From assembly GCA_018350325.1 (NCBI GenBank), contig JAEVLN010000027.1, forward strand, positions 840,380 to 904,379: a DNA stretch of 64,000 nt, given 5' to 3'. A program made the position numbers and the translations under genes. Below, piece by piece: positions 6,986 through 59,395 of the stretch (its first letter is position 1; the number at the start of each line of letters is the position of its first letter). This DNA comes from Globodera rostochiensis (lineage: Eukaryota > Nematoda > Chromadorea > Rhabditida > Heteroderidae). The notes below the pieces were generated by a model that saw nothing but the letters and a program-made list of their open reading frames with translations, searched no databases and was not told where the DNA came from.

Positions 6986-7229
6986 CTGATTTAGAGACCG
7001 GCAATTTTTGATGAGTAGAGACAAAGGGTCGGTCTTTGTTTAAAATAATACGTCGCATTGGGGAAAAAGTATAACACTTTATCTAATTCGAATGGCGGAA
7101 AAGGCTTCAAGAAAATGGTCCGTTATTTGTAGGTAATATTTGTCGATGGGCGATTCAATGTTCTTTTTGATGAACTAAAAATCATATTACATTACTTTTG
7201 CGCACGAAAGTAAAGTTGCCAAAGCACGG

Positions 7230-16907: not shown

Positions 16908-17276
16908 CCAAATGGATTAAATTCTATACAAATGTAAGGCATTTCTTAATTTATTTTCCCTTTTAAATTTGTTGTTTTCCAAATTTTGCAACATTCGTAA
17001 TTTTTTATTCAAATAATTTTCACGACGATGCTTGTAGGCGCCGTCGGACCCCTACCCGTATTTTAAAAATTTACTTAACAAATTAAAATTTCAAAACGGT
17101 GGCGCCGGTCGGGGGGGGGGGTGGGGTGGGAAACGAGCTGTTCCGGGCAACGATACCCATTTTATTGTTTATGTTGTTACACTAGAACTGGTGATATGTG
17201 GAGATGCCATTTTGTATTTCTGGACAATATGATAAAATACGCTCTCTTCGTAAAAAATATATGTGTTGTAATAGCT

Positions 17277-18525: not shown

Positions 18526-19060
18526 TAAGCGTCGTATTCGTTCCAAAGGCTCGTCGCGAAGTTCAATTGCCAAAGGCAGCGGGTCAAACGCACGCGGCCT
18601 CGCGTTCAACGCGAGGCCGCCGCATATCCAATTGTTGCCGTGGATGAACGCCAGCAGATGCAGTCGGAGGCGGCACTTTTGGGCAATATGCCAATGGTTT
18701 GGGAATCCGCTAATTAAAAATTTTTTAACAGGTCGCTAGCTCTTCCACTCTGCTCAATTTGTCCCGCATCCTCCTGGAGATTTGCCGTCGTTGATCCGCG
18801 CAAGGATGCCGTCCACGCGACCATCGCCTCTTTGTGCCTCGGTAGATTCTTTTGGCGCCCACTCTCCGCTCGCGTTGGTCCGTCTGCTCCAGACTCTGAT
18901 CGTTCTGTTGGGTCCAAGCGCAGTGGCTAACTGTTTGCGCATCGGAGAACTCCAAGCGTTTGCGAATGCCACGTGTCGCATTAAAGACGCGGTGTCGGAC
19001 GACGACGTGAAGGCATTGGTCCGCAAGCTGTCCGATAAAATTGGGACGATTTGAAGGCAG
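18526..19060 (+). other. Possible 3' exons of an unrecognised gene after the satellite
   Basis: A perfect hairpin with GCGGCCTCGCGTT arms lies at about 18594-18620. A plus-strand frame at about 18640-18715 (RQQMQSEAALLGNMPMVWES) and another ending at a stop near 19052 (LGPSAVANCLRIGELQAFAN, then SDDDVKALVRKLSDKIG) read like helical coding sequence but lie in different frames. I recognise no domain. They may be exons of a gene interrupted by the array or a relic. Confidence 0.3.
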
Positions 19061-29708: not shown

Positions 29709-32700
29709 ATGTCAATTTCGCCCGAATCAACCGGAGAGGACATAACAGCTGATCAGGGTAAGAAACCCGATGTTTTATTTCATATTAATTAAATAATTGT
29801 TATTGTTTTCAGAACATTTGTGGCCAATTTTCGAAGAATTGCTTCGTTTACAGGACAGAATCAGAATTGCCCTGTTGGAACGCCAACAAACGATCAATTC
29901 GCTGACTTCAAGCGCCAGTTCCGATTTAGTGACACCAAATGGAAATGGTAAAATACTTCAAAAGTGCCGATTCTTTAAAGTTTGGTTGAAAATCTCTTAA
30001 CAAATCGAGTCAAAAATCGCAAAATTTTCTTGGCGGCGCGTGTCGGCACCGCCGACCCACCCGCACCCCTAAAAGAAGTATAATTCGCAAAAAAATTTGC
30101 ATTTTTGAAAAATGAAAATTGACAAAATTATTAGAAATTTCAACAAAAATGTTAAAAATTATACAAAATTTACTGAAAATTAAACTTTTTTGGAAAAATT
30201 TTCTAAGAAAAATGCAATAAAACCAAAAAATACACCTAAAATCCAATTTTTACGAATTCGTCGTCCTTAAATTTTTACTGTTTCTTTAAGTTTCCGTTGA
30301 ACATTTTTCGCTGCTACGAGCAAAGATCGATGAGTTGGAGCGTAAGCAAAAATCTGATCATGAGGAACATCGCGCAAAGATTGACGAGGTGATAAATTCT
30401 TTTAAAATGAATTTGATTAATAACAAAATGGGCATTTTTGTTAGGTATGTTTAAGTAGATGAGGGGGCGGGGTCGAATTTTTTTAAATGCAAAACCGGGA
30501 GGGGGGGGGGGTCTAAAAATAAGTTTTTTTCAAAAACCAACCGGTTCAAAACTATTTCTACATATTTCTAATTGTCGCTTTTTATAAAAAAAAAGAATTC
30601 TACATAAATTTTGATTAATATTGGATTTGAATCGACCCACCCATCTACCGTATTTCCTCAATAATAGACCCCCCTCAATTAGTAGGCCCCCCTCTAATAA
30701 TAGACCCCTTTGGAGAGGGGTTGAACAATAATAGACCCCCCTCAATTAGAAGACCCCCCCCCCCCAATAATAGACCCCCATAACTTTTTGTGTCATAAAG
30801 TGCCCATGTTATAAATAGGCGCTTAAAAATGTTACTACCTACATACCTACCTACCTATTTACATACCTTTTCATTATTTTCATTTTATGTCAGGACAAAT
30901 AGAGCGCAAATTGCATAAGTTATTATTTGTTAATATTAAAATATGAATTCCGGAAACGATTCGACTACCTCTTCAGAAAAACTGGTAAACCTCAAACATG
31001 CTAAACCATTCCTAAAAGCAGGGGTGCTTACGGTTACCAATTTTCATAACCGTAACCGCCCGTCCTCAAACACTCGTAACCGTTAAGCGCCCGTAACCGA
31101 CCGTCCTCAAAATCTCGTCCGTCCTCAAAATCTCATAACCGTTAACCGCCCGCGGTTATCCGCGGTTAACCGCATTATTGAAAAATCAATAAAGTTTTCC
31201 AGATTTCGAAAAATTAAAACTAATTTTTTCCGATCGTGATGTGGCGTCTTTCTAAAATTAATCAAAATTGATGTGTATTGAACTTAATAAGTGATTTTTA
31301 TCAGATTTTGTCAATGAATAAAATTTTTAAATTTCTTCTAACACTTTCATGATTAAAATCTAACAAAGCGCGACCGATCAGAGTAATTTTTTTCTGTTTT
31401 TTGCGCATTAGTTTCCTAAAATATTTTTAAGAAGTGGGGTGGGGGTTCGGCGGTGCCGATAGGCGCCGCCGAGGGGAAAAAAAATCGAATATTTAACGAC
31501 TTATGCTGAGAAAAATCGTCCGAATTTTAGGTGAGTTCTAAAAAAATGCACTAATTATTTATGTAAATACTTAGAATTTTACTTTTTATAGCTAAAATTT
31601 TTGCAAAAAATTGAAAGAATACTAAAAAGGAGGGATATTAAAATATAAATTAAAAAATAAAGTGATACAGCGGAAGGGGCTTGAACCTAGACCAAAAATC
31701 TCAATCAAAGACTTTCACCACTGAGCCACTGGATAAATATAAGAGTTTGGTGAAATGTGAATAAAAGTCAAGTTTTATATTTCTTTGAATAATTTTTCAA
31801 AAAAGGTTGAACAATAATAGACCCCCCTCAATTAGTAGACCCCCCCCCCCCTAATAATAGACCTCTTAAAAGAAAGGGTTGAACAATAATAGACCCCCCT
31901 CAATTAGTAGGCCCCCCTCTAATAATAGACCCCTTTGGAGGTGGGTTGAACAATAATAGACCCGGGTCTATTATTAAAGGAAATACGGTATATAAGTGTC
32001 ATAAATAGAGACCGGATTTTTAGAGTTTATCCTATTTTTTTTTGCGGATAGGGTTAACTATTGGGCTTTTTAGTCCCTATGGTTCTGGGTCTTTTATTTT
32101 TATTAAATTTAAGTCCTATTTTATATGTCCCTATTTCACGTTTTTTAGTCCCTAAAAATCCGGTCTCTAGTCATAAAAAGCACAACGGGACGTGAGATGG
32201 GTGCCTAAAATAAGTTTCAATTACAAAATTTAAATTTGTGAAAATATAACAATGAAAGTTTGTTGTTCAAAAGGCGACCAAAGTGAAGGTCGCTGCTGAA
32301 TGGAAACATCAGCAACTGCTCATAGAGCACAAGGCTCTGCAAACAAAGATGGAGGAGTATCACAGACAACAGCAGCAGAAGATGAAGGAGGAGCAGCAGA
32401 AGATGAAGGAGGAACAGCAACAGAAGATGAAGGAGGAGCAGCAGAAGATGAAGGAGGAACAGCAACAGAAGATGAAGGAGGAGCAGCAGAAGATGAAGGA
32501 GGAACAGCAACAGAAGGTGAAGGAGGAGCAGCAGAAGATGAAGGAGGAGCAGCAGAAGATGAAGGAGGAACAGCAACAGAAGATGAAGGAGGAGCAGCAG
32601 AAGATGAAGGAGGAACAGCAACAGAAGATGAAGGAGGAGCAGCAGAAGATGAAGGAGGAGCAGCAGAAGATGAAGGAGGAACAGCAACAGAAGATGAAGG

Positions 32701-34542
32701 AGGAGCAGCAGAAGATGAAGGAGGAGCAGCAGAAGATGAAGGAGGAACAGCAACAGAAGATGAAGGAGGAGCAGCAGAAGATGAAGGAGGAACAGCAACA
32801 GAAGATGAAGGAGGAGCAGCAGAAGATGAAGGAGGAGCAGCAGAAGATGAAGGAGGAACAGCAACAGAAGATGAAGGAGGAGCAGCAGAAGATGAAAGAG
32901 CAACAGCAACAGACCATCGACGAGTTGACAGAAAAACAAAAGGGTAAACTTTTAAATGCTCTCATTATGGTCTTTTTTTTGAAAAATAATATTTAAATTT
33001 AAATAAAAATAAAATTTTAGGGCTTACCCTTCAAAATCGATGGGATTCTGCTGCATGTCACCAGGGCCTCGCGCTCTCTGAGCCCAATCGATTGATTGCC
33101 CAATATAATGGAAAGCATAGGGGTAAAAATTTTCGGTTAAAATGATTTGATTAAAATGGTTTACCGTATATACTCTTGTAAATCCACATGTGGAATTATT
33201 TTTCAACCTCCTCAGAAAGGGCGGAATTATTAGAGGGTGTGGAATTATCAGAGGGTGTGGAATTATTTTTCAACTGTTTGGTGATATGTTCAGCTATCAC
33301 GAAAATTCTCCACTTTTCCATACTTCAGCTGGCGAAAATTTTTTTGAGAAAAAACCATAAAATGACCCTTTTGTTTTGAAAATTTGTAGTTTTTGGACCA
33401 ATTTTCTTTACAAATTCCTTTAAAAAACACAAAAAAAATTTGACCTCTAAAATTGATTTTGGAAAAAATTTTCTCTGAAAAAATTCCTTAAGAAAAATGC
33501 AATAAACTCCAAAATTGCACCCCTAAAGATTGAGATTTCAAATTTTCAAAATGCACCACTAAAATCCAACTTTTTCCGAAAAAATTCCTTAAGAAAAATG
33601 AATGAGGAAGAAGCGGGATTATCCGAAGATGAGAATATTTGGAGCTTGGCGGTGTTTGCGTAGATGATGAATTATTTTTTGAAACTTAGAACATCTTAGT
33701 TTTATCCTTGTTCCTTTCCCGTTACATCTCGTCAAATTTTACCCAGTGGAAAAAGGTGATAAAATTGGATTCAAATCGTTAAATAAGGTGTGGAATTATT
33801 AGAGGGTGTGGAATTATTTTTCAACCTCCTCAGAAAGGGCGGAATTATTAGAGGGTGTGGAATTATCAGAGGGTGTGGAATTAAAACAGTATATACGGTA
33901 TGTAAAGAATGCAAAACATTTGAATTGAGCTTATTTTTCAGTGTCGTGCTCTGTCCTCGCCGAACGGCCAATTCAAAAAGGAAATTTCGGCATTTTTTAC
34001 TACGAAGTGAAAATCCTACGGATAAAATCGTAACTTATAACTATTATAGAAAAAAGTGTCCTCTGAAATATTATTATATTTAGCTTTATTCCCATTGGAC
34101 TTGCGACGAAAGAAATGCCATTGAACAAAACGGTTGGAGATTTTAAAGGCTCTTACGCATACAGCGGACGCCGTGGCCATTTTTTTGGTCACGAGGTCAA
34201 GGTATCTTCCAACATCGTTGGATGCTCGTACATCGAAGGAATTCCTTCGTTTGGCGTCGGTGACGTCATCGGATGCGGCGTGGATTTGGCAACTCGCCAA
34301 ATCATTTACACAAAAAATGGGCAGCGTTTGGGTGAGAAATAAAAAAGTCAATAAAATTAAAGGGAAATTTAAGTTTAAAAAATACACTCTAAATTTGTCC
34401 TGTGGATTTATTTTGGTTTTTGCAGAAACTACCGGTTTATTTGTCGATTCTGCCGCCGAATTATTTCCATGCGTCTCGTTGTTACGCCAATGGCGACAAA
34501 ATCGAAGCAAACTTTGGCTCGAATTTTGAATACAAATTCTGA
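29709..34542 (+). CDS. SPRY/B30.2-domain protein, SPRYSEC/RanBPM-like, with coiled coil
   Basis: Eight exons: 29709-29757, 29813-29947, 30291-30388, 32274-32943, 33021-33122, 33942-34029, 34084-34331 and 34426 to 34529 or 34542. Phases agree up to the last exon. The N-terminus ([11 protein letters not shown]) has no signal peptide. Exons 3-4 are a charged coiled coil, with more than 25 Lys-Met-Lys-Glu-Glu-Gln units encoded by 18- and 21-nt repeats. Then come [19 protein letters not shown], an [20 protein letters not shown] strand, [11 protein letters not shown], the GxFxGHEV-type strand and the signature [20 protein letters not shown]. The family in cyst nematodes includes secreted SPRYSEC effectors and non-secreted RanBPM-like proteins; lacking a signal peptide, this one looks intracellular. 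In the last exon the frame of ELFPCVSL and that of [15 protein letters not shown] differ by one base, so the end is frameshifted (real, or an error). Three TIR elements lie in its introns. Confidence 0.8.
30005..30060 (-). repeat. GGCGGCGCG hairpin repeat copy in SPRY-gene intron 2
   Basis: Contains TTCTTGGCGGCGCGTGTCGG followed by CACCGCCGACCC, a copy of the dispersed hairpin with a slightly altered loop. It is followed on the T-rich side by the usual CAAATCGAGTCAAAAATC context. Confidence 0.65.
30648..31988. mobile_element. TA-flanked TIR element in SPRY-gene intron 3
   Basis: Inverted ends CCGTATTTCCT(C/T)(A/T)ATAATAGAC are flanked by TA. The subterminal repeats CAATAATAGACCCCCCTCAA occur several times at both ends, as in the related element at 23288-23915. 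The interior includes CCGTAACCG-rich tandem sequence (31030-31170), a hairpin repeat (31447-31472) and a tRNA-like segment (31680-31735). No transposase. Confidence 0.75.
31676..31740 (-). other. tRNA-like / SINE-type fragment
   Basis: On the minus strand the segment has an A-box-like TGGCTCAGTGGT and, about 35 nt later, a strong B box GGTTCAAGCCCC. The D-stem and acceptor do not pair properly, so this is probably a tRNA-derived SINE head or a tRNA pseudogene. Confidence 0.35.
32006..32169. mobile_element. 164-bp hAT MITE
   Basis: Inverted ends TAGAGACCGGATTTTTAG have an exact 8-bp target duplication GTCATAAA (31998-32005 and 32170-32177). It lies in SPRY-gene intron 3. TAGAGACCGG-like relics near 7000 and 43130 may be further copies. 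Confidence 0.88.
32340..32935 (+). repeat. Coding 18/21-nt tandem repeat (Lys/Glu/Gln coil)
   Basis: Alternating units GAGCAGCAGAAGATGAAG and GAACAGCAACAGAAGATGAAG inside exon 4 of the SPRY gene. Their mix creates long open frames in other frames and on the minus strand (Leu-rich, Cys/Phe-rich), which are by-products. Confidence 0.85.
33164..33898. mobile_element. TA-flanked TIR element in SPRY-gene intron 5
   Basis: Inverted ends CCGTATATACT are flanked by TA. The subterminal tandem motif GGAATTATTAGAGGGTGTGG is present at both ends in the same orientation. 735 bp, no transposase. Relics of the same motif lie at 13400-13480 and 34650-34710. Confidence 0.75.
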
Positions 34543-36017: not shown

Positions 36018-38722
36018 TCAACCATTCATTTCAATAATACGCAGAGCCAGAAGTTCTATAATTTCCCCGTGTCCATTTTCAACAGCTTCATCCAGTGCCG
36101 TATTGCCTTAAACAGAGAATTTTTTGTTAGAAATCAAAAGGCGTCCCATAACCTATTCCCCCCCCCCCCCACCATTGGCATCCGTCCGATCAGCGCGCGC
36201 GCCATTCGACAACAAAAAGCGCACAACGTTTGCCTTCCCTTCGCTCGATGCAATTATCAATCCTGTGGCACCATTTCTGCCCGCAACGTCGATGTTCTGC
36301 AGCTGGCCATTCTCCAAGAAGAATTTGACTGCAATTAGAAAATGCCAAAAATCAAAGTAAATAAAAACGGCATTTCAATTTTAATAAATACAGAAAAAGC
36401 TTTTGTTTATGGTATTAAAAAATGTGTTTAAATCAGGGGTGGCAACAAAAATTTTGCGAAATAAGGATAGTGAAGGTCAAAAATAAGATTTTGTTGCCAA
36501 AAAATAAGTAGAATTTACAAAATGTCCATGGACATTTTTAATTTATAATTCAATCAGTTAAATTCCTTAATAAAAAATATGTCCTAATTTTTCTGGAAAT
36601 TGGCTTTGCTTTTTTTAAACTGACCAATGTCCAAATGGCCTTTTTTGCACGCTACCAACCACGGCGAGGGCAAGCCGTCATCCGACTCGCGGTTAGCATC
36701 AGCGCCGTAGGCGACCAACACTTTGCACACCTCCAAATGGCCTTGATTTGCCGCGAGGAAAAGTGGCGAAAAACCTGCAAATTTAAAATTAGATTCGACA
36801 AATAATGTTTCTCAACCCAAATTACTTATAAAAAGAGAAAATTAATTTTTTTTGAGAGGGGGGAGGGGATGAAAGAACGGAAAAGCAGCTTAAAATGCCT
36901 TACCATCCAGTGTCCGATCAACGCTCGCGCCATTCAACAGCAAAAAGTGCACAACGTCCGTATTCCCTTTAAGAGATGCAGCTATTAACGCGGTATAGCC
37001 GTTGCTATGCGTTGCTTCGATGTCCTGGCCATTGTCCGCGAAGAGTTCGACTGCATTTCAAAATTTGAGAAAATTGAAACCGATGGGATTTAATTTCGAA
37101 TTCTTCCCCTCCTACTCCGATCTCCAGAAAATTTTTGCTGTTTTTCTGCTGAACTGACCGATGTCCAAGTGCTCCGATATGCACGCTTTCAACCAGGGCG
37201 AGCTGTCAGCCGACTCCTGGTTGATATTAGCGCCCATGGCGACCAACTCCCTGCACACCGCCAAATCACCTTCTTTTACCGCGTGGAATAGCGGTGATAA
37301 ACCTTTAATTTTAAAAAAAACATTGTCTGCTTAGAAGAGTGCCAGCAAATAACCCCTAAAACGGCATTTTCTGTTTAAATGCCCTCACCCTTGGCATCAG
37401 TCCGGTCAGTGAGCGCGCCTTTCGATAGCAAAAAGTGCACAATGTTTGTCTTGCCAAAAACAGATGCGACTATTAACGCGGTGTAGCCGTTGCTATGCGT
37501 AAATTCGATGTTTTGGCCATTCTCCACGAAGAATTTAACTGCAATTAATTCCGTTAAAATAACAATTTCGTTGCGGCGTCAATCAGCACGCTCAACTGGC
37601 GCCGCGTTTTTGTGCTCCCCCCCCCCCCCAACAAAAATGTCTGGTTAGGCTTGAGCATCAGTATTCTCCTATCTGAAATTTAACATGAGGCAACTAAATT
37701 TCGAAGCAATTTCCTTTACAATGCTTGTCGGCATGGACAATAGGGTTGGGCGGACGCCAAGCGAATTGTCAAAATTGCGATTTTTGAAAAAATGAATTCC
37801 GCCCACCGATGTGTAAATGGCCTTTCCCGCACGCTTCCAACCACGGCGATCCGCCGTTTTTCGACTCCTGGTTGACATTAGCGCCGTTGGCGACTAAATC
37901 TCTGCACATCTCCAAATGACCTTTGTTTGCCGCGTGGAATAGCGGCGAAAAACCTGAAATTTACGTAAAATCCTTATTTAGTATCAGTTTATTTGTTAGA
38001 AAAGTGCCAGCAAATAACCCCTAAAACGGCATTTTCTGTTTAAATTCCCCCACCCTTGGCATCGGTCCGGTCAGTGAGCGCGCCCTTCGATAGCAAAAAA
38101 TGTACAACGTCCGTATTCCCTTTAAGAGATGCAGCTATTAACGCGGTATAGCCGTCGCTATGCGTTGTTTCGATGTCCTGGCCATTCTCCACGAAGAATT
38201 TGACTGCAATTAAAAAATTTCAAAAAATGCTAAAATAAAATCAAATTGAAAACTGTAAAGGGCCCGGGGGGGAGGGGGGTAAAGCCTCCACCCAAGCTCA
38301 AATTACAATGGCTTTGTTGTTTTTTCTACTAAACTGACCGATGTGCAAATGGCCTTTCGCGCACGCTTCCAACCACGGCGAGCTGTTAACCAACTCCTGG
38401 TGATTAACATCAGCGCCGTTGGCGACCAACACTTGCACACGTTCAAATGCCCTTGACTTGCCACGAAAAAAAGTGGCGAAAAACCTGCAAATCAAAAATT
38501 CTCGTCGCCATTCTGAATTAAGCTGAAACACCTTCAATTGTCGAGCTTCGCAAGCAGTTCCATTGGCTTTTACTTAAATGGACATACAGTGAACGCACTC
38601 CCTCGGCATCGTCCTTTTCAATCAGCTTGAAAAGGTAATTTACGATATGGGGATGAAGCTGGACCATTCGAGCAATGAACGAATTGAAAGAGAATCTGTT
38701 GATGATAACGCTAAAAACCGAA
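36018..38722 (-). CDS. Ankyrin-repeat protein, ten exons
   Basis: Minus-strand gene. Exon 38722-38541 starts the visible part (FKLIEKDDAEGVRSLY). Eight repeat exons then alternate two types. Type A (38486-38337, 37953-37802, 37303-37157, 36775-36619) reads like HLEVCKVLVAYGADAN followed by SPWLVACKKGHLDIG. Type B (38206-38054, 37541-37388, 37053-36903, 36328-36173) reads like VKFFVENGQDIETTH followed by GYTALIAASLKGNTDVVHFL and GALTDRTDA. The last exon, 36106-36018, reads NTALDEAVENGHGEIIELL and stops at 36018-36020. Each pair spans about two ankyrin repeats, and exon phases are uniform, so exon duplication explains the array. Ankyrin repeats bind proteins; no partner can be inferred. No signal peptide was seen; the start codon may lie further upstream. 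Exon borders are approximate to a few bases. Confidence 0.75.
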
Positions 38723-40926: not shown

Positions 40927-43900
40927 ATGGGGAATTCAATTGGGGCGGCGATTGAAGAGCAGAATGAAGACGGTAATTTTGATTGGGATTTTTTAAAGTT
41001 TTAAAACTCCAAATTTTTGTTATTGAAGGTAATTCAAAGAGTGCCGAGGAATTGCTGGACGAGTTGGCGCATCTCAACCACAACGATAAAGGCATCTCCA
41101 GTGATTCGTTGGCCCAAATGCTGGGGGATGTCCGCGCGTGCATTTGCCTAGGCGAGTCTTCCGATCGGAACTTTTCCGTTTTCCTCATAGCGCCCCCACC
41201 AAAAAATGATTTAAATTTGTTTAAATGGTGTTAAATTTTACAATCTTTATTTCAGATGGAGTACAACAGCATCCCATTTCCAAATGGACGACAGAAGACA
41301 TCAAGTCGTGGGCGGAAGACTTGAAGAAGCAACGACAAACGCGCGAATTGTCCGAACTGCTCGCGGTTGCTTGCCGCGCCTGCAAGCTTGCTAATGGTAC
41401 AGTTTAATATGGCAATTACGGCACAAAATACAAAATGCCGGAATTCAGTTTTTTGGGCTTCCAAAATCTTCCAATTGAACAAATAAAAACTTATTAATTG
41501 AAAAGCATATTCAGGGTATTATCCCCGAGATGCGCAGCTCATTCCAATTCTGTTGATGCTTTCACCTTCAAAAACTGGGCTTCATGGACAGTTGCAGCAG
41601 ATTGCCACTGGCGAAGGAAAAACCGCAATTGTGGCGTTGTTCGTTGTTGTGAAGGCATTGCGGGACCGCGTTAAGGTGAGTTGCGTTCGAATCCACATAA
41701 AGCACAAATTTGTGCATACGTGATCGAGGGGGGGGGGTTGGCCAAAGCCGAGTTTCCATTGGAGGCCGGATCGGTCGATTTTTTTAAATTTTGGACCAAG
41801 ATTTTTTGAGATTATCAATCGGTGCCCATCAGGCTTGCTCCGAGTTACCCGAAAAGGATAACCCTGCATACGATATTCACATATTTTCTCACCAAAAACA
41901 GAGCAGAATTCCAGGAATCGAGATTTTTTGGCACCAATTCTCTTTTACAGGAATCGGGAAAATCAAGAGTTTATTTCCCCTACAAAATAGTTTCAGATTC
42001 GATTTGGAATTAGGGGTGATGAAATAGGGGTTTGCTGTTGTCACATAACAGAAAAGTACCTTCCCACCAAGAACCGAGTAATTTCCGGCACCATCTCAAC
42101 TTTTACATGGGTCGGTAAAAAGGGGGTTTGTCATATAAAATCCGTTTTTGAAATATTTGTATCTCGATCCCAGTTTTTTCTAAAAATACCGGTTTTGCTC
42201 TACTCTCCACAAAACTAACTTAGCGATTTTTTCTTTCCACTAATCGGGATCTCTATCTCTTACTAACGTTCGTTTTTTCACTAGTGTACGAAATGTCCGG
42301 ACACCGCTATTTGCCTATAAAACAGTTTCTGAATTTCCTGCCCCTCAAAAATATTCGGTTTGGAATTAGGGGAGATGAAATCGGATAGAGTAGAAAATTT
42401 TCTAAAAAATATTCCTATGATTAAATAAATTCCTTCAAAATTTACAAATTAGATCGATGTTGTGACCAGTTCGGATGCATTGGCAAGGCGCGACGCGAAG
42501 GATCTCAAAACGTTCTACGGCATGTTCGGACTAACTGTGGACCATTGCACCGGCGGCCTCAGTCCTCGCTACAAGAAATGTTACGCTGCTGACATTTTGT
42601 ACGGCGACATTGGCTCATTCCAAGGCGACATTTTGTCCCATGAATTTCAATCTAAGGTAAGTCACATCCATTGGACAATTTGTCCATTTTTGCCCATTGG
42701 TGGTCACCTTGTTCATTATTTTTTGCTTATTGGTCTATTTTATATGGTCAAAACTCAAGTTGATCAAATCACAATCCTATCGATCTCTAAATGCAAATTT
42801 GGCTAAAACCATAAATTTTCGAAGCAATGAAGAAGGTATGAGCCCTTGAACTGAAGTGCCCCTTTCAATTGGGGGCGTATCAAGCTCTGAGGCTTAAACC
42901 TAGGCTTTTAAGTAGAGATCGGAATTTTCAAAACAATGGGCAAGTGTCGCCGACCTACGCTAACCCGTAGCCCGCGAAACCCGTGTCGGCCCAAAACGGG
43001 TCCTTGCCCGTGCCCGTTCTCTATTATTAAGTTGTAGAAACTGTGCCCCAATTGAACAGAGACGATTCAGTCCAGTGCTCACTTTAGGTTGCGAAAAAGT
43101 GGATTCTAGCTTTATAGTCAGAGGAGTTGATTAGAGACCGGACAACTACCAAATAAATTCTGGACATTTTGAATCTTGTACGTTTCGTCCGTTTGACATT
43201 TTGTTTATTGGGAGGGGGCACTTTGTCAGTAAGGTTTAACCATTGGCTTTTAATCACTAAACGTACGTTAGGATAAGAATTCTTTCCTCAATTATCATTG
43301 TTTTGCGTTAATTTACTAACTATGGTCGAAATCCAAAACTTCTTTTGTCTAATTGCTAGTTTAATTTGTGCAGAATGTTCGTGGAACGCCGCCCCGGCCA
43401 TTCGAGTGTATTGTAATTGACGAGGTTGATTGCATGCTTTTGGACGAGATGATGCAGGTCCGCCGTCAAAGAGTGCATCCCCTAAGGGGGGGGGGGCGTA
43501 ACTCCCCGAAAGTTGTGGGCAGAAAAGCTCAAATAGGCCCTTTTTGGCCAATTCAGTTAATATATTACTGCTTGAGTGAGTCGGGAAAAATAAACGGGTT
43601 GGCTGCTCTTTATTGGATCGGATACGGCCAAAAATTTCTCGGTCCGGGTTTTGGATACCGGGACGCAAAAAGTTTTAACTTGCTCATAATTGATACTGAA
43701 TAAAACGATATCAGCAATTAGTATTACCTAAATTGTTACAAATTTTTAAACGATATCAGCAATTAGTATTACCTAATTATTGTTACAAATTTTTAAACGA
43801 TATCAGCAATTGGTATTACCTAATTATTGTTACAAATTTTTGTTCAGGAAAGGATTTTGATGCTTTCATTTCACGTTCCCGGCATGGAATATTTGCAAAG

Positions 43901-46900
43901 CATTTTGACAATGTGTTGGGCCCACTTTGTGCAGTTTTGCGGCACTTTGAAAAGAGATCCGGAGGATGAGAATAAACTTATTCTGTGCATTAACGGCGAA
44001 GAGTATCGAGCTGAAGCGTGGAAGCATTATGAAAATTGTGTGAAAGATTTGGAGGAGCAGCTGACGAATATGATCAACGAAAATGGGAAAAATGTAAATT
44101 TTGTTTAAAATTATTTTTTGTAAATGCATTTTAAAGAGTCTAGGTTTTGTCTCCCAGCAAACCAGCTTGTCCCCCGACACCGTCGTATTCGAAACGCCAT
44201 AATTTTTTTTTTTTGTAGTCACCCAAATCCTGTAATTATACCGCACTTTTGACCTTCTTTAACCTTTAAAGTTGGGCACCACTTTGACTCCGCTAAAAGT
44301 ATTGGATTTTGTGGTTTTTTTAAATACATTTTTACAAATTTTAGATTTTTTCCGGGGTCCAGTTTTCGTTTTCTGCTGGTGCCAATCTTTCTGTTCAGTT
44401 TCCGGCACTCGGAAAACTACCATCTCCCTCCCTCTATAAAGTGCCATTGCCCCAGGGTACGGTATTCATATTCCTCTTAAATGAATGTATTCAGGGTGAG
44501 CTGCTCGTCATCCCTCCCCATTTGCGTGCGTTTGTGCGTCAGCAAATACCGAAATGGATGAATTCGCTGAAGAGGGCCGTTCAAATGAACGAGAATTGCC
44601 AATATGTCATTCGCAAAGGCGACGTTGTCCCAGTTGATTACCAAAACACGGGCACACAGCAGCGCAGCACCAATTGGTCGGACGGGTTGCACCAGTTTCT
44701 GCAACTGAAGCACGGACTGCGCATGAACCCGGAAACGCTTGTCACCAGCTTTATCACAAACCCCGGGTTCATTAATAGGTAATTTAGACGTTTAACTGTG
44801 TCCTAGACTTTTAAGCTTTACCGTTTTTTCTCAGAACAAGTCAGGGATGCCATTTAATTGGGGGGAGGGGGGGAGGGAATCCGTGCCGTTTTTGAATGCT
44901 AAGAAACAAGAAATTTCTTAAACTTACAATTTGCAGATACGAAGAAATTTACGGACTTAGCGGAACACTCGGAAGCAAATATGAGCATTCGTTTCTGAAG
45001 GAGCACTACAAAGTCAACATAACACTCATTCCAACATACAAACACACTCAATTGGAAACAATGGATCCCATTATTGCAAATGATCTGCAGAGCTGGATTG
45101 CCGAAATCTGCAAAAACGTAATGGAAATAGCGGATTGTGGTGATTTAAAGCGTGGCCTGGTTACAAATTTCTTAACCATATCAGCCCGCCCTCTTGACCG
45201 CTAACCGCCCGTATTGCTCCAAATTCGAAAATGATATGTTCGAAGCAACTTTCTTCCGATCTTGTTGTGACTTTTGAACCGAAATTTTAGGAACACGGGG
45301 GGTTGACTCAAAAAAGAGTGCGCGATTTTACTTATAAGCGTTTAGGGGTTAAGTCTCGTATCGCTTTCGAGCATCGCACCCTTTTTCATTTGGGGCGAAG
45401 CGACGTTTAAAATGCCATAACTCTTCTTGGACAGTTTGATGAATAAAAGGAAAAATTTGTGCCCTAAAAATCCGTCTTGTGCCCCATTTCTCTTTCGGTT
45501 TTTGACATCGTAAGGCTTCGACCTACCCCTGGTGGTGGGGGGGGGGGTTTGAGGTTGCTTAGTTTCACCCACCCCCCATGGTTTTTCTGCCAAATTTTAT
45601 TTTTGGCGAAGGGGGGGGGGATCTTTCCTACGCCCTTGGTACAAAGCTCTTGGTTTGACTAAACTTAAAAGCGATTAAACCGTAAATTCATACTTTCTTA
45701 AGATTTTCGTCCAAGTTACACTGTGCAAACGAGCTGCTCTGATTATTTGCCTGACCAACGACATTGTAAATCAGATAATTGAAATCGTCAAAGGCACGTG
45801 TCGGACATCAATGTACACAAATATACTGACGATGACGAACATCTTCCGACAGAATTTGTCGGCCCAATGGATGTCGTTTTCTCTACAAATTATGCCGGCC
45901 GCGGCACTGACATTAAAACCAGCGCCGAAATTGAAGCCAACGGCGGCCTGCACGTGATCGTCACGTTTATGCCGAAGAACAGTCGGGTCGAACGGCAGGC
46001 ATTCGGTCGCACGGCACGACAAGGCAAAAAGGTGGCACGGCACAAATTTGTTATAATAATTAAAGCCGGTCTTATCCAACCCTACTCCAAAATTGAGTCT
46101 GAAATTCCAAAATTTTTCTCGGCGGCGTAGACGGGACCCCGTCGAGCCCTTCCCCTCCTACTATAACATGTATGATTGAACCGGTTTAATCATTAATGAA
46201 CGTTTTTTGGGCCAAAAATTATTAAAAATTGAAAGTTTGATGCAATTAGAAAATATATTCGTCTTTTATTTTTGTGCTTATTAAGGGGACGGCACTGCTC
46301 ATTCTTGACAAATGTGACTTGGACGATGATTTATTTGACCAAAACATGGACATATTGGCGAAACGCGACCAATTGGTTAAGCAATCTTTTGAAAAGTGCA
46401 AAAAAGAAGTGCTGCCAAAAATGCTCGCCAGGGATCGATTGTTCGAAAAGGTTTCAACGTTTATGGCAGAAGTTCGCAAAAGTACAGCCGACGCCGTAGG
46501 GGGCAACGTAGAAATTCTGGCGCAGATTGAGGAGCACTGGGGCTTTTGGCTGCGGGAAAAAGTGGAGATGCGAGACAAAAACGCTCCAATGCCTTCAGGG
46601 TAAAAACATCACTAATTAATTAACCAATGCCCCCAAATCAGCGGATGCATTTGATCATTTGTTATAGAAAAGGGAAATTCCCATTCTGTTTTGAAACGCC
46701 CAGTTCGGCGTTGGCACACTTAAAGTTATTAGCTAACCAATGCAATCGAAAGCTTTTTCTGAACTTTGATCAAGCGAAAGCAAGCATTTTTGTCTTTCTT
46801 TGAATAAGTTAAAGCTTAAAACGTGTAGAAATCTCAACTTATCGTATTTCACCAAAGCGTCTAATGGACAAAATGTCTAATGATGGAAATTCAAGGACTG

Positions 46901-49900
46901 AGTTGGACGCCTTCATCGTGGATGAACGTCGGAAAGCAAAGGACCTGAGCATCTTCACGAATCCGTGCTATTTGGTGATGAAAGGGTACAACTTGGACTA
47001 CGGAAATGCCATCAACCATTTGGAGAAGGCAATCGAATTGGATGAGAACCAAAGTGGTTTTGCTGCTCCTGCGCATTATTATATGGCATTGGCACTTGTC
47101 AAGAAGGATCACTATATCAGGTAGAGTAATTGTCAAATTTTTATTTATTAATACAGACATTTGTATATTAAATATTAATAATAATTATAAAATATGAAAA
47201 CAATTCTTTACTTTGTGTCTCAGGGTATAAATTAATGCAGGGTTCGGATCGGGTTAAGACATTTCCCAAGGACAGACATGTTGATTTCCAAGGACATAAC
47301 AGAAAATTTGGTTTTCCATTTTAAAACAAAACGCTTTTTTCTTTTCAAATGGATTGTATTTCTCGCCGGAATGAATCTTTTATACAATTTATTTTCTGTA
47401 TAAATTCCAAAATTTGATTATTTAGCGTGAAAAAATGCAAAGTATGCCTCGAAAATCAACAAAAAGCGGCGGAGCATTTGAACAAAGCAAATGAATTAAT
47501 TAATAACAAATTAATTCCTTGGCTATCGAGAGGAGTGCTAATGAGGCCGGGTGAGAAGAATGGGGAAGGGGAAGGCAGCGCGCAAAGCACGGAATTCTAT
47601 CAGCAAATTGTGAACAAAGTGCAGTTACTTCAACGACTGAGTGAGCAATGCGAAAAATGGTACAATGTGAGCTAATTTTTCAAAATATTTATGTTTGTGA
47701 TTTTGATTGGTGAAATTTTATTTGGGATGCCCGATCGTAATATCGGTTGCTCGGTTCGGGGGTTCTCCAGGATTTAATGTCTTTTTCTTATTTGACTGTA
47801 AATATAACAATTTAAGTTTATTGCCAAGTGCCCTGCTGGCCATGTTTGCAAGTTCAAAGGATGGGTACAGCCGGATCCGGACAAAAAACTGCCGCAAAGG
47901 GAAGTGGCGGAATTTGGCACTTTCGGTGTTTTCGAATTCTATGAGCTTGATTATGTCAAACCGCCAAAAGCATGGGGCTCCATTTTTTGGATGGCTTTCC
48001 TCGGAGTTGCACAAGTCTGCTTTGGAGTGTACCTCGCATGTAATGGCGCTTTTGGACTTGCTGCTTCTTTTCTTAAAGTATCCAATTAATTTAGGAAACC
48101 AATATATATGGGAAGTTCCAACAATATTTTTTTGACATTTTTATGAAAGTATTGATTAATATGCACAAATATTCAGTGCGGAATTAGCGATATCGTCGAA
48201 GCCGCAAGGGCTGCGTTTGGCGATTCTGTCATCAGCTGGGGCAAGAATATTATTGACAAAATTTTGGACTATGGCCCAGTGTTGGCACGTTGGGCCTCCA
48301 ATTATCTCTCGAAATGCAAAAATGGCATTGGCAAGTGGCTGTTCAAATGTGTCAATCGCCTCACAAAACCATTGGAAACAGTGTCGCCAACGAGTATAGA
48401 TTTTGCAGAACAAAAGCGCGCCTTCTTGACCAACGTCTTTATCAGTTCTGGTGCAACGGAATTGAAACGTACGTTTTGGTGTATTTTAATTTTTGGGCAA
48501 TTAAATTTAAAAATTTATAATTGATTACATGGGATTTGAGGTCTGCCGATATTTCTCGAATCGGGGTATGCCAAACGGACTAACCCTGACCGGACATTTC
48601 GGTATCCGTCCCCAGAGAACTGCAAAAAGGGGCAGGGACCGCAAGGGGCCTGGCTTAAAATCAAAAAGGGCATATGGAGCCAGGAAAACATTAAAACAAA
48701 AAAATAGTCTATTTGCTCGAGTTATTTGATAAATTGCCGAGTTTTTTCACCCCGGAATTGTTCCAAGATCATTTCTGACAGTCAAAATTTAGAATTTGTG
48801 GTCGAAAAGACGGGGACGTCGATGCCAGACTTAAATCTCATCGAGGGACTGTGCCGCCAGGGCTTGGCAGCGTCGCTCGGCCGGGACTCAATTCAAAATG
48901 TGCTCAAACTTGGAGACAATTATTGGCGTGACACTGTCAAAGGAGAAATGAGCAAAATAATTTCAAAAAGTGCTCGAAAAGTGTTTGGGGACGGCAAGGG
49001 TTTTGTGAAGAATTTGACCGAGGTCGGTAATTGAATTTGTTGATAATTTAAATCTTAATTACCCTCCCATGGATAAAATGCGTTTTTTGTTAATTTCTTT
49101 GCAAACAATCTGAAAGAACCTCCTCCCGAAACAAAATTTCGCTTATTTTGGCAAAAAATTATTTGTTTGTAATTTTTTTGCGATTTTTGGTGCATATAAT
49201 ACGCTCCCTTTCTGTAATATATACTCCAAGGGTTTGCTATTTTAGCCGGGATTCGGAATCCCGCACTGCATTTATACATAATAAATTACTTAAGCCTAAA
49301 TTAAAATTAAATATTTTCAGTCAGCCCTTGTTCGAACATTCACTAATATATGCGGGGAGGAATTGGACAAATTTGCTGACAAATTTTTCGATGATGCTTT
49401 AAGGACAATAAAAAAAACATTTTCGCAAAATGATGAATCAACGGCGTAAGTGAACACATTAAATTCAAAACAATTTTTTAAAATACCTAAATTTATTTGC
49501 TTCGTCCATTTCGCAAATTATCAATCCCCGTAATCGATGATAATGTTAAATTTTAAAATTAAGTACCGTTCCGCCTTCCGAAGATGCAATCGAAAAGATC
49601 AAGAAAGTGCTTAATGATCCTCTGCCTCCTTCAACAAAGGACAAATATGCCGCACTGCTTAATCGACTCCGCAAACTCAATTTGGGCAGCGAATATGATA
49701 ACTTTCTGAAGGCTTTGGCAAAGCAATTTTCCACGTGCCCGCCGGACAACGACGACAACGACGGGGGTGGCGCCGGCGGGGCATCGAATCGCCCGACGGA
49801 CAACGACGATATTGTTAGAGAAGCTGCACAATCTGTTATTGCCGGACAGCAAAACTCTGAACGAGCAGATTTGAGCTTTTTGCCGCCCGGGGCTGCCCAA

Positions 49901-52900
49901 AACATTTCCTTTTTTAACGTAAGCATTTATGGCATTTTTTACACTAGATTTAGAAGACATTAATTCAAATTCCTGCTTTCATATTACAATTAAGGATTGG
50001 GCGAGGGCCTTTTTTATTTTTTCAAAAATTGTGAACCTTATTTATAGAAAACGGTCTGGTCCTGATTTTTAAGTTCCGGTCTTGACTTAATTACCCGGCG
50101 GCTTCCATCGACACAGATGGACTCACCCAGAAAGCTAAAAGTTTGCTAAACAAATTGTCAAACCCTGAAGTGGGGCCTTAACTGAAACGTCAATTTTTAG
50201 GCGTAATGCCGTTGGCAAATTTCTCTCTTCTGACGGGCAGCCGAGACTACTCTCGATGTCCAATGTCATAAAGGAACAGCAGCCATTAGACCTTTTCTTT
50301 GTGCGACCCCATGAAGCCAAAGTGTTGTCCCTTATAAGACAGCTCGAATCAGGCACAGGTCCCAAGTAAAATTTTGATATCGATTTTAAGGCTCAAGAAT
50401 TTCGGTTTGATACATTTATTGGTGTACATTATTAGGAAGCAATTGGCAAATGCCAACATTCTTAACTATTTAAAAAATTTAGTGATCAAAATTTGTTGCT
50501 AACACATGATCATTAATTCTTTACCAAAATGGCATCGCCCGGGCATGGATTATAAGCATTTTGCATAATTTTAGTGTTAAGCTTCAAACGGTGTTTACGT
50601 TGGCATGGTCCTTTTGAGCATTTTGATGCCATTATTAATCTGAAAATGAATTTTTTATAGTTTAATAGAATTATATAGGTTTTTTTGTTGTTATATACTG
50701 CTAATTAAAAATGCTATTTTTATTTTAGCCAATTTTAATTTTTGGTTAAAAATTTGCTTTAGGGCGTACGGAGTGATTGTCATGGTCGTGCCCGAAGGCG
50801 CTACATTTAAGAAGACACAGGGGGCTGCGGATCGACTGAATCGGGCCATTTTGAAAGAAGAGTACGGCGTGGATTCAATCGAAAAATTGCCATGTGCGAA
50901 AGTGTTGGTCTTTATGGAAAAGTTTTTGGGCAAATTTCCGTTGTGTATACGAAATGAAGCCTCACTGGAGCGCCTGAAGAGTGCAAATAAGTGCTCGGAA
51001 GCGGAATTCGAGCGGATTAAAGCCCAAAGTAAAGATGCAAAAAGCGTTATCGACAAATTGATGAAGGAGAAAAAGATATCGAAAGAAGATTACGACATTG
51101 TGTATCCACCGCCCCACACGTAAATTTTCATTTTATTTCATGAGCGATACTTTGGGCGCCAGGGTGAGGATCATCCAAATCCATCCCGGGCAAAGAGTAC
51201 ATGAGGTCCTGGATGTTTTTAAAAATATTCTCGGTCTTGGTTGGAACCAGGGGACCTCAAATGCTCTCAGATCAGAACTCTGAAATTCCTGATTTTTGAC
51301 CAAAAATCCTCAGGTTCCATCTTAGGGGTCTGTCTGTTCGAACGGCGCCCTTCCCTTTTATACAAAAATTTTTGCATATGTCGAACCCCGAACCCGAATT
51401 CAACAATTGGTCGAAGAACCCTCAATAATTTTAAAGTAGTGCATTTTTGGTCTAAGAAAAAGCTTCGATTCTACGACCTCGAAAACCCATTGAAATAACT
51501 TCTTTTTTTTTATCTTTATTTTTTGAAAATGAGGGGGAGGGGATTTTGTCTGTTTCAATGTTTAAGGAGCAGTGTATACCCCTCAAATGCGGTCGGGGCA
51601 TACCAATTCATCAGCAATACACTGGCGCCATTAGTGGAAAAACACAAATTGGAGAACGTTCCTTTCAGCCCTAAAGTTCAGGTGAAATGATTATTTAAAC
51701 GAAATAATAATTTAACTTCACATAATTACATAATTAGGGCTGGGAATTTTTAGGCACAAAAAATGCGAAATAGGCCGCCGCTAATAAAAACCAAAAACCC
51801 CCCAAAATAAGCACTAAAAATGCCAAAATAGACACCAAATATTATAACGATTAATACAATTTCTTGGCTAATCCAAACATATTTATACATACACTTATTT
51901 TATCATTTTCAGGACTTTCTGGCCTGTAAATTGTTGCATAAGAGGCACTTTGACGACTTTTTGAATAAAACACTTGTGAAGGAAGAATTAAAAATAACTA
52001 AGAAGCGCCTCATAGTGACTAAGCACGAGGGCAAGATCAAAGTGACTGAAGAAAATATCAAAGTGATTAAGCAGAAGGGCGACATCAAAGTGACTTTGGA
52101 GGAATTTGCTGAGAATTTGAGCAAGGAATGGGCCTCATTTCCTTATTCGGCCGACGGTCTAAGCTATTATCACGCGGATGGCCAAAACAAAGCGCTTGTG
52201 AAGTGGAGTGAACTGCTTGACGTGCTGAAGGAAGCAAAGGTGCACTATACAAAAATTAAATTAAAGTGCGAGTGTTTTGATCTGTGGGATCGAAAAAATC
52301 TCTGGGGGTATTTTTGGGGGCTTTGAGTCAAGCAAATCTCGGGGCCTCAGTCTTGGGGAGTTTCGAGTCGCGAGAAATTTTGGTCGCCGAACAGCCTCCA
52401 ACAAATTGATAGTCCACACTCAATTTTTAGGTGCTGTACGATGAGATGAAAAAGAGAGAAAAAGAGGAGGCGGAGAAAAAAGCAAGCACCATTGGCAAGT
52501 TTTTTTGGCTTTTTAAAAAAAATTTTGTCAATAAGTTTCGCTTCTGTGCCTTTTAAATTAAAAGTGCATAACGCGGTGGCATATGTCACCATTCATTTCA
52601 AGTGGGAGAAGCTCGCGGGAAGAGGAAACACTCATTTGTCAGGGGGAAAATAATAAACAAGCGCGAGGACATCTTCAATTTTCAAAAAATTTTTTACAAT
52701 GAGAAATCGGAAATTGTTAAAAATCGGCACTTAAGATTTGCCGGGCAACTAACTACCGATCCCAGACTTTTCATTTTCAAAAAATTGCTGGGTTTGTAAG
52801 AAATTGGGCAATATAGGAACGGCTGGTCTCTCCAAATTTTTGTTCTTCAGAAAAGACACTAATTTGTTTAGTTGTTTAATTTTTGCTATAATAAGGATTT

Positions 52901-52963
52901 TTTTTTTTTTGAAAATTTGAGTTTTCACAATTCAATTTTTGCTTTTTTTCAGTTACCAGCTGA
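40927..52963 (+). CDS. SecA-like ATPase/helicase protein, intron-rich
   Basis: About 25 exons, roughly 1,670 residues. It starts MGNSIGAAIEEQNEDG (40927). 41515-41675: GYYPRDAQLIPILLML and the Walker A block ATGEGKTAIVAL. 42453-42656: VTSSDALARRDAKD, then ILYGDIGSFQGD. 43374-43457: Walker B CIVIDEVDCMLLDE. 44495-44778: YVIRKGDVVPVDYQNTG and NWSDGLHQFLQLKHG. 44937-45159: EEIYGLSGTL and LIPTYKHTQLETMD. 45703-46031: STNYAGRGTDIKT, NGGLHVIVTF and QAFGRTARQGKK (motifs V-VI). Bacterial SecA (about 900 residues) drives preprotein export; here the ATPase core is kept, but the long C-terminal part (46286 onward) has TPR-like repeats, an EFYELD-KPPKAWGSIFW segment with a hydrophobic stretch, a CGISDIVEAARAAFG block and charged coils. 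Similar extended SecA-like proteins exist in some other eukaryotes. GC donors occur at 41152 and 52495. A one-base frame break lies near 45795 and some junctions (46600-46858, 50117-50201) are uncertain. Function unknown; secretion is not implied. Confidence 0.85.
41515..41675 (+). other. Exon with SecA Walker A (nucleotide-binding domain 1)
   Basis: Exon 4 of the SecA-like gene. It aligns with the SecA stretch 'GmxPyDVQLiGgmxLhxGxiaEMxTGEGKT': here GYYPRDAQLIPILLMLSPSK, then QQIATGEGKTAIVALFVVVK. Gly-Glu-Gly-Lys-Thr is intact, so ATP binding is plausible. Confidence 0.85.
43703..43846. repeat. Intronic tandem repeat, about 48 bp x 3
   Basis: Three near-identical copies of AAACGATATCAGCAATTAGT followed by ATTACCTAATTATTGTTACA, just before the acceptor at 43846-43847 of the SecA-like gene. 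The repeat ends at the acceptor tract. Confidence 0.8.
45703..46031 (+). other. Exon with SecA motifs V and VI (nucleotide-binding domain 2)
   Basis: The exon opens with RAALIICLTNDIVNQIIEIV, corresponding to the SecA 'PVLVGTxSIExSExLSxxL' strand-helix, then YTDDDEHLPTEFVGPMDVVF and the motif V block NYAGRGTDIK, followed by NGGLHVIVTF and the arginine-finger block FGRTARQGKK. The first part and the rest differ by one base in frame near 45790-45800. An alternative reading splices a roughly 60-bp GC-AG intron (GCACGT...CGACAG) and keeps the frame at VKEFVGPMDVV. Confidence 0.8.
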
Positions 52964-57746: not shown

Positions 57747-59395
57747 GGTAATAGTCTAGTTTGTCCCCCCCATTTTTGAAAAAAAAAAACTTTTTTTGAA
57801 GTCATCTAAAACATGTTTCCGGGGGTTTTCGGGGTCACTGATCACGATTCTGACATTTTTTTACCCAATTCCGAACCCGAACCCGAATTCGAACAATTTT
57901 TCGGAAATTTTTTTTTTTTTAAATTCACATTTATTGCCCATAATCGATTCAAATGCACGCAATGGCAAGTAACAACACAGATTCACATGATAAAAGACTA
58001 TTCACATGGGTAAATGTGACGAATATGATCCCACAATTCATAAAATGCATCATCACCAAATCGCTTTCGCCAGAGAAATTCAGCAAAATAAGTGTTAAAA
58101 GTAGTAGAAACATTGCCAGATTGAGGGCGGAATTTACGCTTGTAAGTGGACCACATGCCTTCGATATTTTGCGTATGAACATCGGGGTCATTGGGGTTGA
58201 GAAAATTCTCATTGTGGTTTACAGTATAGTGCTGGTAGCCCTGAGGTAAATTCGGTATCCCCCCATAGGCTCTCCACATATCGGAATAAATTATTGACCC
58301 CGGGGCGATGTATTGCTCAATCAAGGGCAGCAAATCTTGGGCCCTTCGGCGAAGGACTGGCACCATAAATGCCCTCTGTCCATTGGTGCCGCGCTCAACC
58401 CCGCCAAATAGCCATTCATTGGCATTTCCCCTCAGTCGCCCTCTGTTGTATTTTCGTCGAACAATGCATGTCTCGTCGATCTCTACGACGATGCCTTAAG
58501 GATACCATATCCAATTTAACCCAAAACTAGTCCCACCCTGGCCCCCAATTTGGATTGAGTGTCGCACAAAATATTCGGCGCATATATCGCGGAAAAAGTT
58601 CGTCCAATCGGTGATAGTCTGCCTTGCGACACCAACATCCTTTTGGATGTCGTCAAAAGTACCGAACTTGCGAGCCCATAGGTAAGACAAATGAACAACT
58701 TCTTTCGTTGTCAGGTGAGACCCCTCGAAAAATGTGCCACCCAAATAGCCCACTTCCCGTCTTCAATCCCTTGTGCTGCACCGCCAGGTGCCATAACGGC
58801 GATCAGGTTTCGCATTACGATAGGTCGTGCTGCCGCCACACTCACAAGTTCGACGGGAATGGAGAAGCCCCATTTGTTCAAGTCGTTGGTCAAATTCGTT
58901 GTCCGGGGATGACAAAAATTCATAGAAATTTGGGACGTTAAGGCCTTGGAGCTGATCAATTGCCATTTTTTGGGGAAAATGTTAGGATTTTGAAGAATGA
59001 GTGAAAGAACCATTGCTGACAGCCGATGATGGACGGAACCCCCCTCCCCCGGGTAAGGGGTAACAAAAGAATGAACGTTAGCTGCGACTGGCGAATTCCA
59101 AAAGGCGTTCAAAATGTAGATGAGATGGACAAAAGCCAGCAGAATTTGAATTGGCGAGTGAACGGCTCACAACGAATGGCCATTTCGTGCATTTGCATCG
59201 ATTTTGGGCAATAAATGTGAATTTAAAAAAAAAAAAAATTCCGAAAAATTGTTCGAATTCGGGGTTCGGAATTGGGTAAAATAAATGTCAGAATCGTGAT
59301 CAGTGACCCCGAAAACCCCCGGAAACATGTTTTAGATGACTTCAAAAAAAGTTTTTTTTTTTTCAAAAATGGGGGGGACAAACTAGACTATTACC
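57747..59395 (-). mobile_element. Merlin-superfamily DNA transposon, complete ends
   Basis: 1,649 bp with about 200-bp inverted terminal repeats starting GGTAATAGTCTAGTTTGTCC. The target duplication AATTTTTG is exact (57739-57746 and 59396-59403). One minus-strand transposase gene lies inside. Merlin elements are related to bacterial IS1016/IS1595. The long, nearly intact ends and exact duplication indicate a fairly young copy. Confidence 0.93.
57998..58966 (-). pseudogene. Merlin transposase with two in-frame stops
   Basis: A single reading frame from ATG at 58966 to 57998 (about 322 codons) is broken only by TGA at 58760-58762 and TAA at 58493-58495. It has a Cys pair region CECGGSTTYRN with a later TWRC (zinc-ribbon-like), a helix-turn-helix region (VGVARQTITDW), then the catalytic region: VVEIDETCIVRRKYNRGRLR (first Asp), IYSDMWRAYGG (second Asp) and TQNIEGMWSTYKRKF (Glu or Glu-equivalent), as in ISXO2-like/Merlin DDE domains. 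With two stops it cannot act unless these are read through, but frame integrity indicates recent inactivation. Confidence 0.88.

Follow-up and report, generated by a model that had tools for sequence, protein, structure and literature searches.

A gene for a SecA-type ATPase, divided by many introns, lies in a stretch of 64,000 nucleotides from the cyst nematode Globodera rostochiensis (C20:840380-904379, where C20 is contig JAEVLN010000027.1 of a 92.6-Mb assembly). This whole stretch is referred to below as the window. All six SecA core motifs (ATGEGKT, IDEVDCMLLDE, NWSDGLHQ, YGLSGTL, NYAGRGTDIK and FGRTARQGKK) occur in order on its + strand, as an earlier note on this DNA had reported, and they are followed by a long trunk and a putative lysozyme domain. 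Nineteen coding pieces were placed by hand along guide Globodera proteins at 40927-49918; the splice sites were picked to fit these guides, and the exon set is a model, not transcript evidence. Seventeen modelled introns carry splice dinucleotides at both ends, with AG at all acceptors and GT at all donors except for a single GC at the end of E2 (41151). The gene is therefore intron-rich, as previously described, while only one of the two GC-AG introns claimed for it is borne out by the model. Additional open pieces were found at about 50169-50366, 50764-51123, 51565-51681, 51913-52254 and 52431-52556, which moves the end of the gene from 52963 to near 52556. Both G. pallida P0250 and G. rostochiensis P0241 splice the 50764-51123 piece onto the 51565-51681 piece, and the exon ends within 49918-50760 are provisional. 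The features of the locus are as follows.

40927-41151, + strand: exons E1-E2, N-terminus, with the start codon at 40927 and the GC donor closing E2; the N-terminal 17 residues are identical in G. pallida P0002
41256-43457, + strand: exons E3-E6, first nucleotide-binding domain (ATGEGKT, VIDEVD), matched by PF07517 on the guide proteins
43848-45117, + strand: exons E7-E9, predicted clamp-equivalent region with NWSDGLHQ and YGLSGTL; the equivalent P0001 region superposes on SecA
45703-45792, + strand: exon E10, start of the second nucleotide-binding domain, from the guide proteins
45792-45807, + strand: frame interruption from E10 to E11 in the window copy, where the guide proteins read on
45807-46031, + strand: exon E11, with NYAGRGTDIK and FGRTARQGKK
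46286-46599, + strand: exon E12, long helix predicted on P0001 as the equivalent of the SecA helical scaffold
46896-47666, + strand: exons E13-E14, TPR-like trunk (TPR below the Pfam cut-off in P0001)
47817-49022, + strand: exons E15-E17, trunk and hydrophobic hairpin (PPKAWGSIFWMAFLGVAQ...), common to bacterial relatives
49321-49918, + strand: exons E18-E19, distal trunk and linker
50169-51123, + strand: start of the putative lysozyme domain (VLSLIRQLESG...) and a long insert, with splice ends partly provisional
51565-52254, + strand: core of the putative lambda-type lysozyme domain (AVGAYQFI..., EWASFP..., SYYHADG)
52431-52556, + strand: probable last exon (VLYDEMKKRE...) and stop, resembling P0242

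N-myristoylation of the MGNS start was considered and dropped; P0001 and P0003 begin MSNS.

The window gene is matched by G. pallida P0001 at 1312 bits, far beyond chance, and its closest protein is G. pallida P0004 (90.3%). PF07517 was detected in P0001 at 3.5e-27, and both nucleotide-binding domains are present, with Walker A/B and motifs V-VI. The predicted structure of P0001, a paralog of the window gene, shows a full SecA fold with clamp and helical scaffold, and superposes on SecA. PF07516 (wing/scaffold) and PF02810 (SEC-C) gave no match in P0001, P0002, P0003 or P0007 at E up to 1, and a search of a viral structure library returned mostly helicases with low template modelling (TM) scores and no entry named SecA. 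Against the NCBIfam models, P0001 scored 121.3 bits for secA (TIGR00963, cut-off 800) and 124 bits for accessory SecA2 (TIGR03714, cut-off 930). Because these scores are far under the cut-offs, a conventional SecA, for example one serving organelle import, was ruled out, and by its profile scores the window gene family is not SecA proper. Of the earlier description, the SecA-type ATPase and its encoding by a spliced animal gene stand, whereas a SecA export motor does not agree with the curated score of P0001. The Globodera proteins further differ from canonical SecA and SecA2 by their extra trunk and tip and by forming a separate clade.

The locus had been treated as one gene, but it belongs to a multi-copy family. 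PF07517 matches six places in the G. rostochiensis genome (C49, two on C20 and three on C18), and a seventh locus, with a partial motor, is found on C67, giving at least seven motor-bearing loci spread over four contigs. A check in other assemblies and databases had been proposed, and family members do occur in both G. pallida and G. rostochiensis. Four G. rostochiensis proteins were compared with loci of this genome, which is most likely of that species on the identities obtained. In the best stretches these were 95.1 and 98.2% for P0003 at C49, 93.5 and 97.8% for P0006 at C20, 97.1% for P0007 at C20 and 97.6% for P0005 at C67; adjoining stretches were lower for P0005 (85.5%) and P0007 (87.4%), and P0008 reaches 88.1%. 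One short stretch (84 amino acids) of G. pallida P0009 is 98.8% identical to the G. rostochiensis genome. The C18 trio (L009/L014, L010/L015, L011/L016) constitutes a divergent second SecA-like subfamily, 97% alike mutually, whose best summed motor score is to Darwinula; the trunk hairpin of the family is also seen in genes A and C, the two in which the trunk was read. A single entry shared with the main subfamily gave p 0.3 in the approximately unbiased (AU) test. The introns after EFQSK/EFFGK and after CKN/VKK are apparently common in position and phase to the C18 and window genes, which favours one entry, while the E8/E9 and E11/E12 introns are not common to the window gene and the C18 subfamily.

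These data also bear on the idea of bacterial contamination or an endosymbiont contig. The family is common in endosymbionts, and Cardinium has been recorded in G. rostochiensis (PMC12842512), yet this origin was rejected as practically inconceivable on the basis of the 17 modelled introns with splice dinucleotides at both ends, the 904-kb contig and the spread of seven motor loci over four contigs; that G. pallida has close relatives argues in the same direction.

On sequence comparison, the window gene ends in a lambda-type lysozyme domain. The exons at 51565-52254 matched the phrog_90 endolysin (2.1e-12), and the tip matched a lysozyme-like protein from a Rhizobium phage (30% over 96%, E 2e-4) and unnamed standalone proteins of 156-223 amino acids (33-37%). 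A profile of P0241 and six unnamed relatives reached the PDB entries 1am7 and 3d3d at 1.5e-4, behind a '66 kDa protein' entry (7e-6). The Glu of VLSLIRQLESG, in the upstream exon, aligned with a Glu conserved in the relatives (6/6), in a short match (E 0.008), and is a candidate for the catalytic glutamate. The tip has the AVGAYQFI, FSPxxQD, EWASFP and SYYxxDG motifs in common with phage lambda lysozyme (1am7, 3d3d; phrog_90), from which it differs in being intron-split, in its two inserts and in its position as the tip of a large protein. Another kind of tip, RNase_T, was found at the C-terminal end of G. rostochiensis P0003 and P0007. The P0003 tip is ISG20-like (ISG20L2 8e-25); since this type is eukaryotic, gain of the exonuclease tip within the nematode is suggested.

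Lysozyme-tip pieces (11 matches) are located in the window and at five C67 sites, and the exonuclease tip at C49; it was not found within the 7 kb examined at the C20:243-257k copy, and the P0007 exonuclease is known from the database protein. Trunk is followed by lysozyme, on one strand, in the window and at two C67 loci, and trunk by exonuclease at C49. This recurrent order, together with toxin tips at the equivalent place in single-open reading frame (ORF) relatives, argues against the alternative that the ATPase is SecA-like and eukaryotic but serves some unrelated regulatory or transport function, and that neighbouring lysozyme and exonuclease genes were fused to it by prediction. Such a fusion, which we regard as very unlikely, would agree with G. 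rostochiensis P0241, a separate short model holding the lysozyme part, with P0242, in which that part is joined to a model named BTB, with G. pallida P0002, which has motor and lysozyme yet skips the middle trunk, and with the provisional state of the exon ends within 49918-50760.

Relatives of the Globodera proteins occur in bacteria and other animals. Among the best 120 of 5897 matches of a protein search, Globodera leads, followed by Lutzomyia, Anopheles, Wyeomyia, Brachionus and unnamed metagenome proteins, with ordinary SecA from about E 1e-37 onward. A plasmid search gave 105 records, headed by three giant genes from Megaira (E 2e-99), Bandiella and Legionella geestiana. When each prokaryote species was represented by a single genome, scanning yielded 31 loci, with two each in five genomes; by title, 23 of the 31 belong to Rickettsiales, Legionellales, Parachlamydiales or Amoebophilaceae, three to other Bacteroidota, and five are less specific. 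The 23 include two Arcanobacter loci, whose order is presumed. In the 34 loci made up of these 31 and the three from plasmids, ORFs span 712-4871 amino acids within the examined stretches, many being cut at the stretch end. In the best 120 of 687 matches of a long-protein search, Tisiphia, Rickettsia and Megaera appear alongside animals, namely Darwinula, bdelloid rotifers, Nesidiocoris, mosquitoes, seed beetles and Tenebrio, although some of the animal records may be contaminants. The family, often of giant proteins, is thus distributed in Rickettsiales, Legionellales, Chlamydiae and Amoebophilaceae, and patchily in rotifers, insects and an ostracod.

The roughly 900 C-terminal residues had been described as unlike bacterial SecA; they do have relatives, as the trunk is found in endosymbiont proteins and the end is of phage lysozyme type. 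A hidden Markov model (HMM) of the post-motor region from five Globodera proteins reached E 1e-5 or lower in 19 of the 43 relatives searched, the best being L029 (1.2e-30), L021 (2.5e-22) and L041 (7.6e-19), with E-values that apply to a small set. A hydrophobic GVAQ/GLTQ hairpin, followed by an EG..D....FSW..Y segment, is readable in L029 and L039. In the long-protein search, 25 of the best 120 rows carry a precomputed accession that we take to denote an effector or toxin domain. A domain scan covered eight proteins, of which seven had been picked for such an accession; in six, a nuclease, amidase or RES domain ends 3-43 residues before the C-terminus, and no toxin domain was found in P0164. 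C-terminal toxin domains in some family members, bacterial and metagenomic, include colicin D, WHH, AHH, LHH, Tae4 and RES. P0218, from Rotaria magnacalcarata, has an Ulp1/RickCE-type peptidase at 1264-1379, ahead of the motor and not C-terminal, so effector domains are possible on either side of the motor. Small ORFs lie directly after L046 and L021, with weak DUF6312 and DUF6980 matches. At L021, the giant SecA-motor gene, whose end is colicin E3-like, is immediately followed by two DUF6980 ORFs (5269-5846 and 6402-7043, one under the Pfam cut-off), and a DUF4272 ORF is found further along; these followers are candidate immunity genes.

The first tree comprised 92 rows, including 30 of the 34 bacterial loci (L017-L050, with L038, L042, L045 and L049 out). 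For a careful tree, 60 of the 92 rows were kept after removal of three canonical rows and of 29 family rows that were near-duplicates, partial or on long branches. This tree separates the 55 family rows from the 5 canonical SecA rows with 100/100 support, and the four Globodera rows form one clade (100/100). The 14 other-animal rows require at least 7 label changes on well-supported branches, and a single clade of all 18 animal rows was rejected by the AU test on the rows at hand (p 3.3e-53). Because the animals are not one clade, repeated transfers between bacteria and animals are likely. The earlier note had proposed an ancient transfer or a eukaryotic SecA-like family, and it considered that placement inside one bacterial clade with no other eukaryotes would count against it; the trees point to a family with bacteria-animal transfers, in which bacteria and several animal groups are interleaved.

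The direction of transfer has been viewed differently. Very long 'eukaryotic-like secA' genes were described in Wolbachia wBol1-b and wHa, insects, Daphnia and protists, and transfer into bacteria was inferred (PMC3639933, published in 2013); these genes were assigned to the eukaryotic association module of phage WO, whose SecA is nearer to invertebrates than to bacteria (PMC5062602). A eukaryotic origin with later passage into endosymbiotic bacteria, as argued in 2013 for wBol1_1092, is nevertheless highly improbable: Legionella and Parachlamydiaceae form the deepest branches when trees are rooted on canonical SecA, three quarters of the prokaryote loci (the 23 of 31 above) belong to the four groups named, and several tips are interbacterial toxin domains.

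We favour, with moderate confidence, the reading that the nematode gene belongs to a family, shared with bacteria of intracellular groups and with other animals, that combines a SecA-type ATPase, a conserved trunk and, in some members, an exchangeable toxin tip, and that the ATPase would probably drive the unfolding and passing of the lysozyme tip toward a bacterial target. As a working model, the animal may have taken over a bacterial toxin, which it likely uses against microbes. A toxin of intracellular bacteria would have entered the cyst-nematode lineage, acquired introns and duplicated; the motor would spend ATP on unfolding and passing its own tip; bacterial peptidoglycan would be cleaved by the lysozyme tip, and RNA by the exonuclease tip; and the nematode may deploy these proteins against symbionts such as Cardinium or invading microbes. 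Tips of a peptidoglycan hydrolase and an RNA exonuclease are compatible with antimicrobial use. That the animal turned a bacterial SecA-motor toxin into a multi-copy antimicrobial family with exchangeable warheads, either phage-type lysozyme or an ISG20-type RNA exonuclease gained after the transfer, is put forward only tentatively.

A number of observations weigh against the favoured reading. The window copy has a frame break at about 45792-45807, a place at which the guide proteins are continuous, and a full-length product from this copy is doubtful for that reason. Relative to the window, 12.6 kb are inserted, probably in an intron, in the C67 copy L062/L061, and about 2 kb inside an exon piece of the C67 copy L063, with decay as a possible meaning. 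The window tip matched no Pfam family, the tip alone gave no lysozyme match in the PDB, and its predicted structure was too poor for use (mean predicted local distance difference test, pLDDT, 56.7). Omega of the lysozyme tip was 0.72-1.24 in six pairs, with every interval spanning 1, which would fit diversification, relaxed constraint or decay of the tip. A lysozyme located in the cytosol would have to be delivered. On the side of the relatives, 24 of 43, some of them truncated, miss E 1e-5 on the trunk HMM, and in C-terminal scans of 22 of the 34 bacterial loci only 3 stretches lie above the Pfam cut-off (colicin D in L046, ADP-ribosyltransferase-like in L025 and LysM in L019), with 2 more below it (colicin E3-like in L021 and RickCE-like in L017). 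The Globodera clade sits on a long stem within a polytomy, so that the tree singles out no donor.

The frame interruption, the tip omega near 1 and the partial C67 copies, one with an insertion inside an exon piece, would also be expected of a decaying remnant, i.e. a family that entered nematodes, multiplied and is now degenerating, with the window locus as a functionless pseudogene. This alternative is somewhat unlikely, given that omega of the motor between copies was 0.46-0.52 in three pairs, with upper bounds of 0.59-0.68 and thus below 0.7, and that long gene models occur in G. pallida (P0001) and G. rostochiensis (P0003, P0007). Trunk omega was 0.49 and 0.51 in two pairs, the other four giving 0.49-0.84 as point values. 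The motor is under purifying selection, of which the tip gives no indication.

Other features of the window include ankyrin-repeat pieces just upstream of the SecA-like gene on the opposite strand (38040-38573, - strand), an ISXO2-like transposase domain at 58001-58495 on the - strand (PF12762, E 1.4e-17), and short tandem repeats that make up long open frames at 17172-18736 and 32220-32993.

The locus had been presented as a candidate undescribed system, but a related insect, protist, Wolbachia and Amoebophilus family is already found in PMC3639933. The eukaryotic-like secA genes of Wolbachia wBol1/wHa phage WO likewise encode very long SecA-domain proteins in endosymbionts and animals, far from bacterial SecA; compared by description, the available portions of PMC3639933 and PMC5062602 describe no nematode, toxin tips or exchange of tips in animals. 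Amoebophilus effectors with SecA-like domains have been reported (PMC3482391), as have giant actinobacterial toxins with SecA-like ATPase domains, predicted to aid secretion (PMC8195603); the idea of a toxin with a SecA-like motor inside it therefore has precedents. In the description available, the latter toxins also have the ATPase built into a giant toxin and carry GT4, HTH and MFS domains. Bacterial polymorphic toxins similarly combine a long trunk with a variable C-terminal toxin domain, and small ORFs lie directly 3' of two bacterial members of the present family; in contrast to polymorphic toxins, the trunk of this family carries its own SecA-type ATPase, and the nematode genes have introns. 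A literature search for SecA-type genes in nematodes or Globodera found no nematode report, the Globodera matches being irrelevant by title. As far as this search shows, the nematode branch, the C-terminal toxin tips of the endosymbiont-animal family and the two kinds of tip on one animal trunk are new.

The family connects the endosymbiont and animal genes known as 'eukaryotic-like secA' with polymorphic toxins and with the transfer of genes into nematodes that parasitize plants. It leads to the predictions that a SecA-type motor built into a toxin can drive the movement of that toxin's tip, and that the tip can be replaced, in an animal, by one of the animal's own enzymes.

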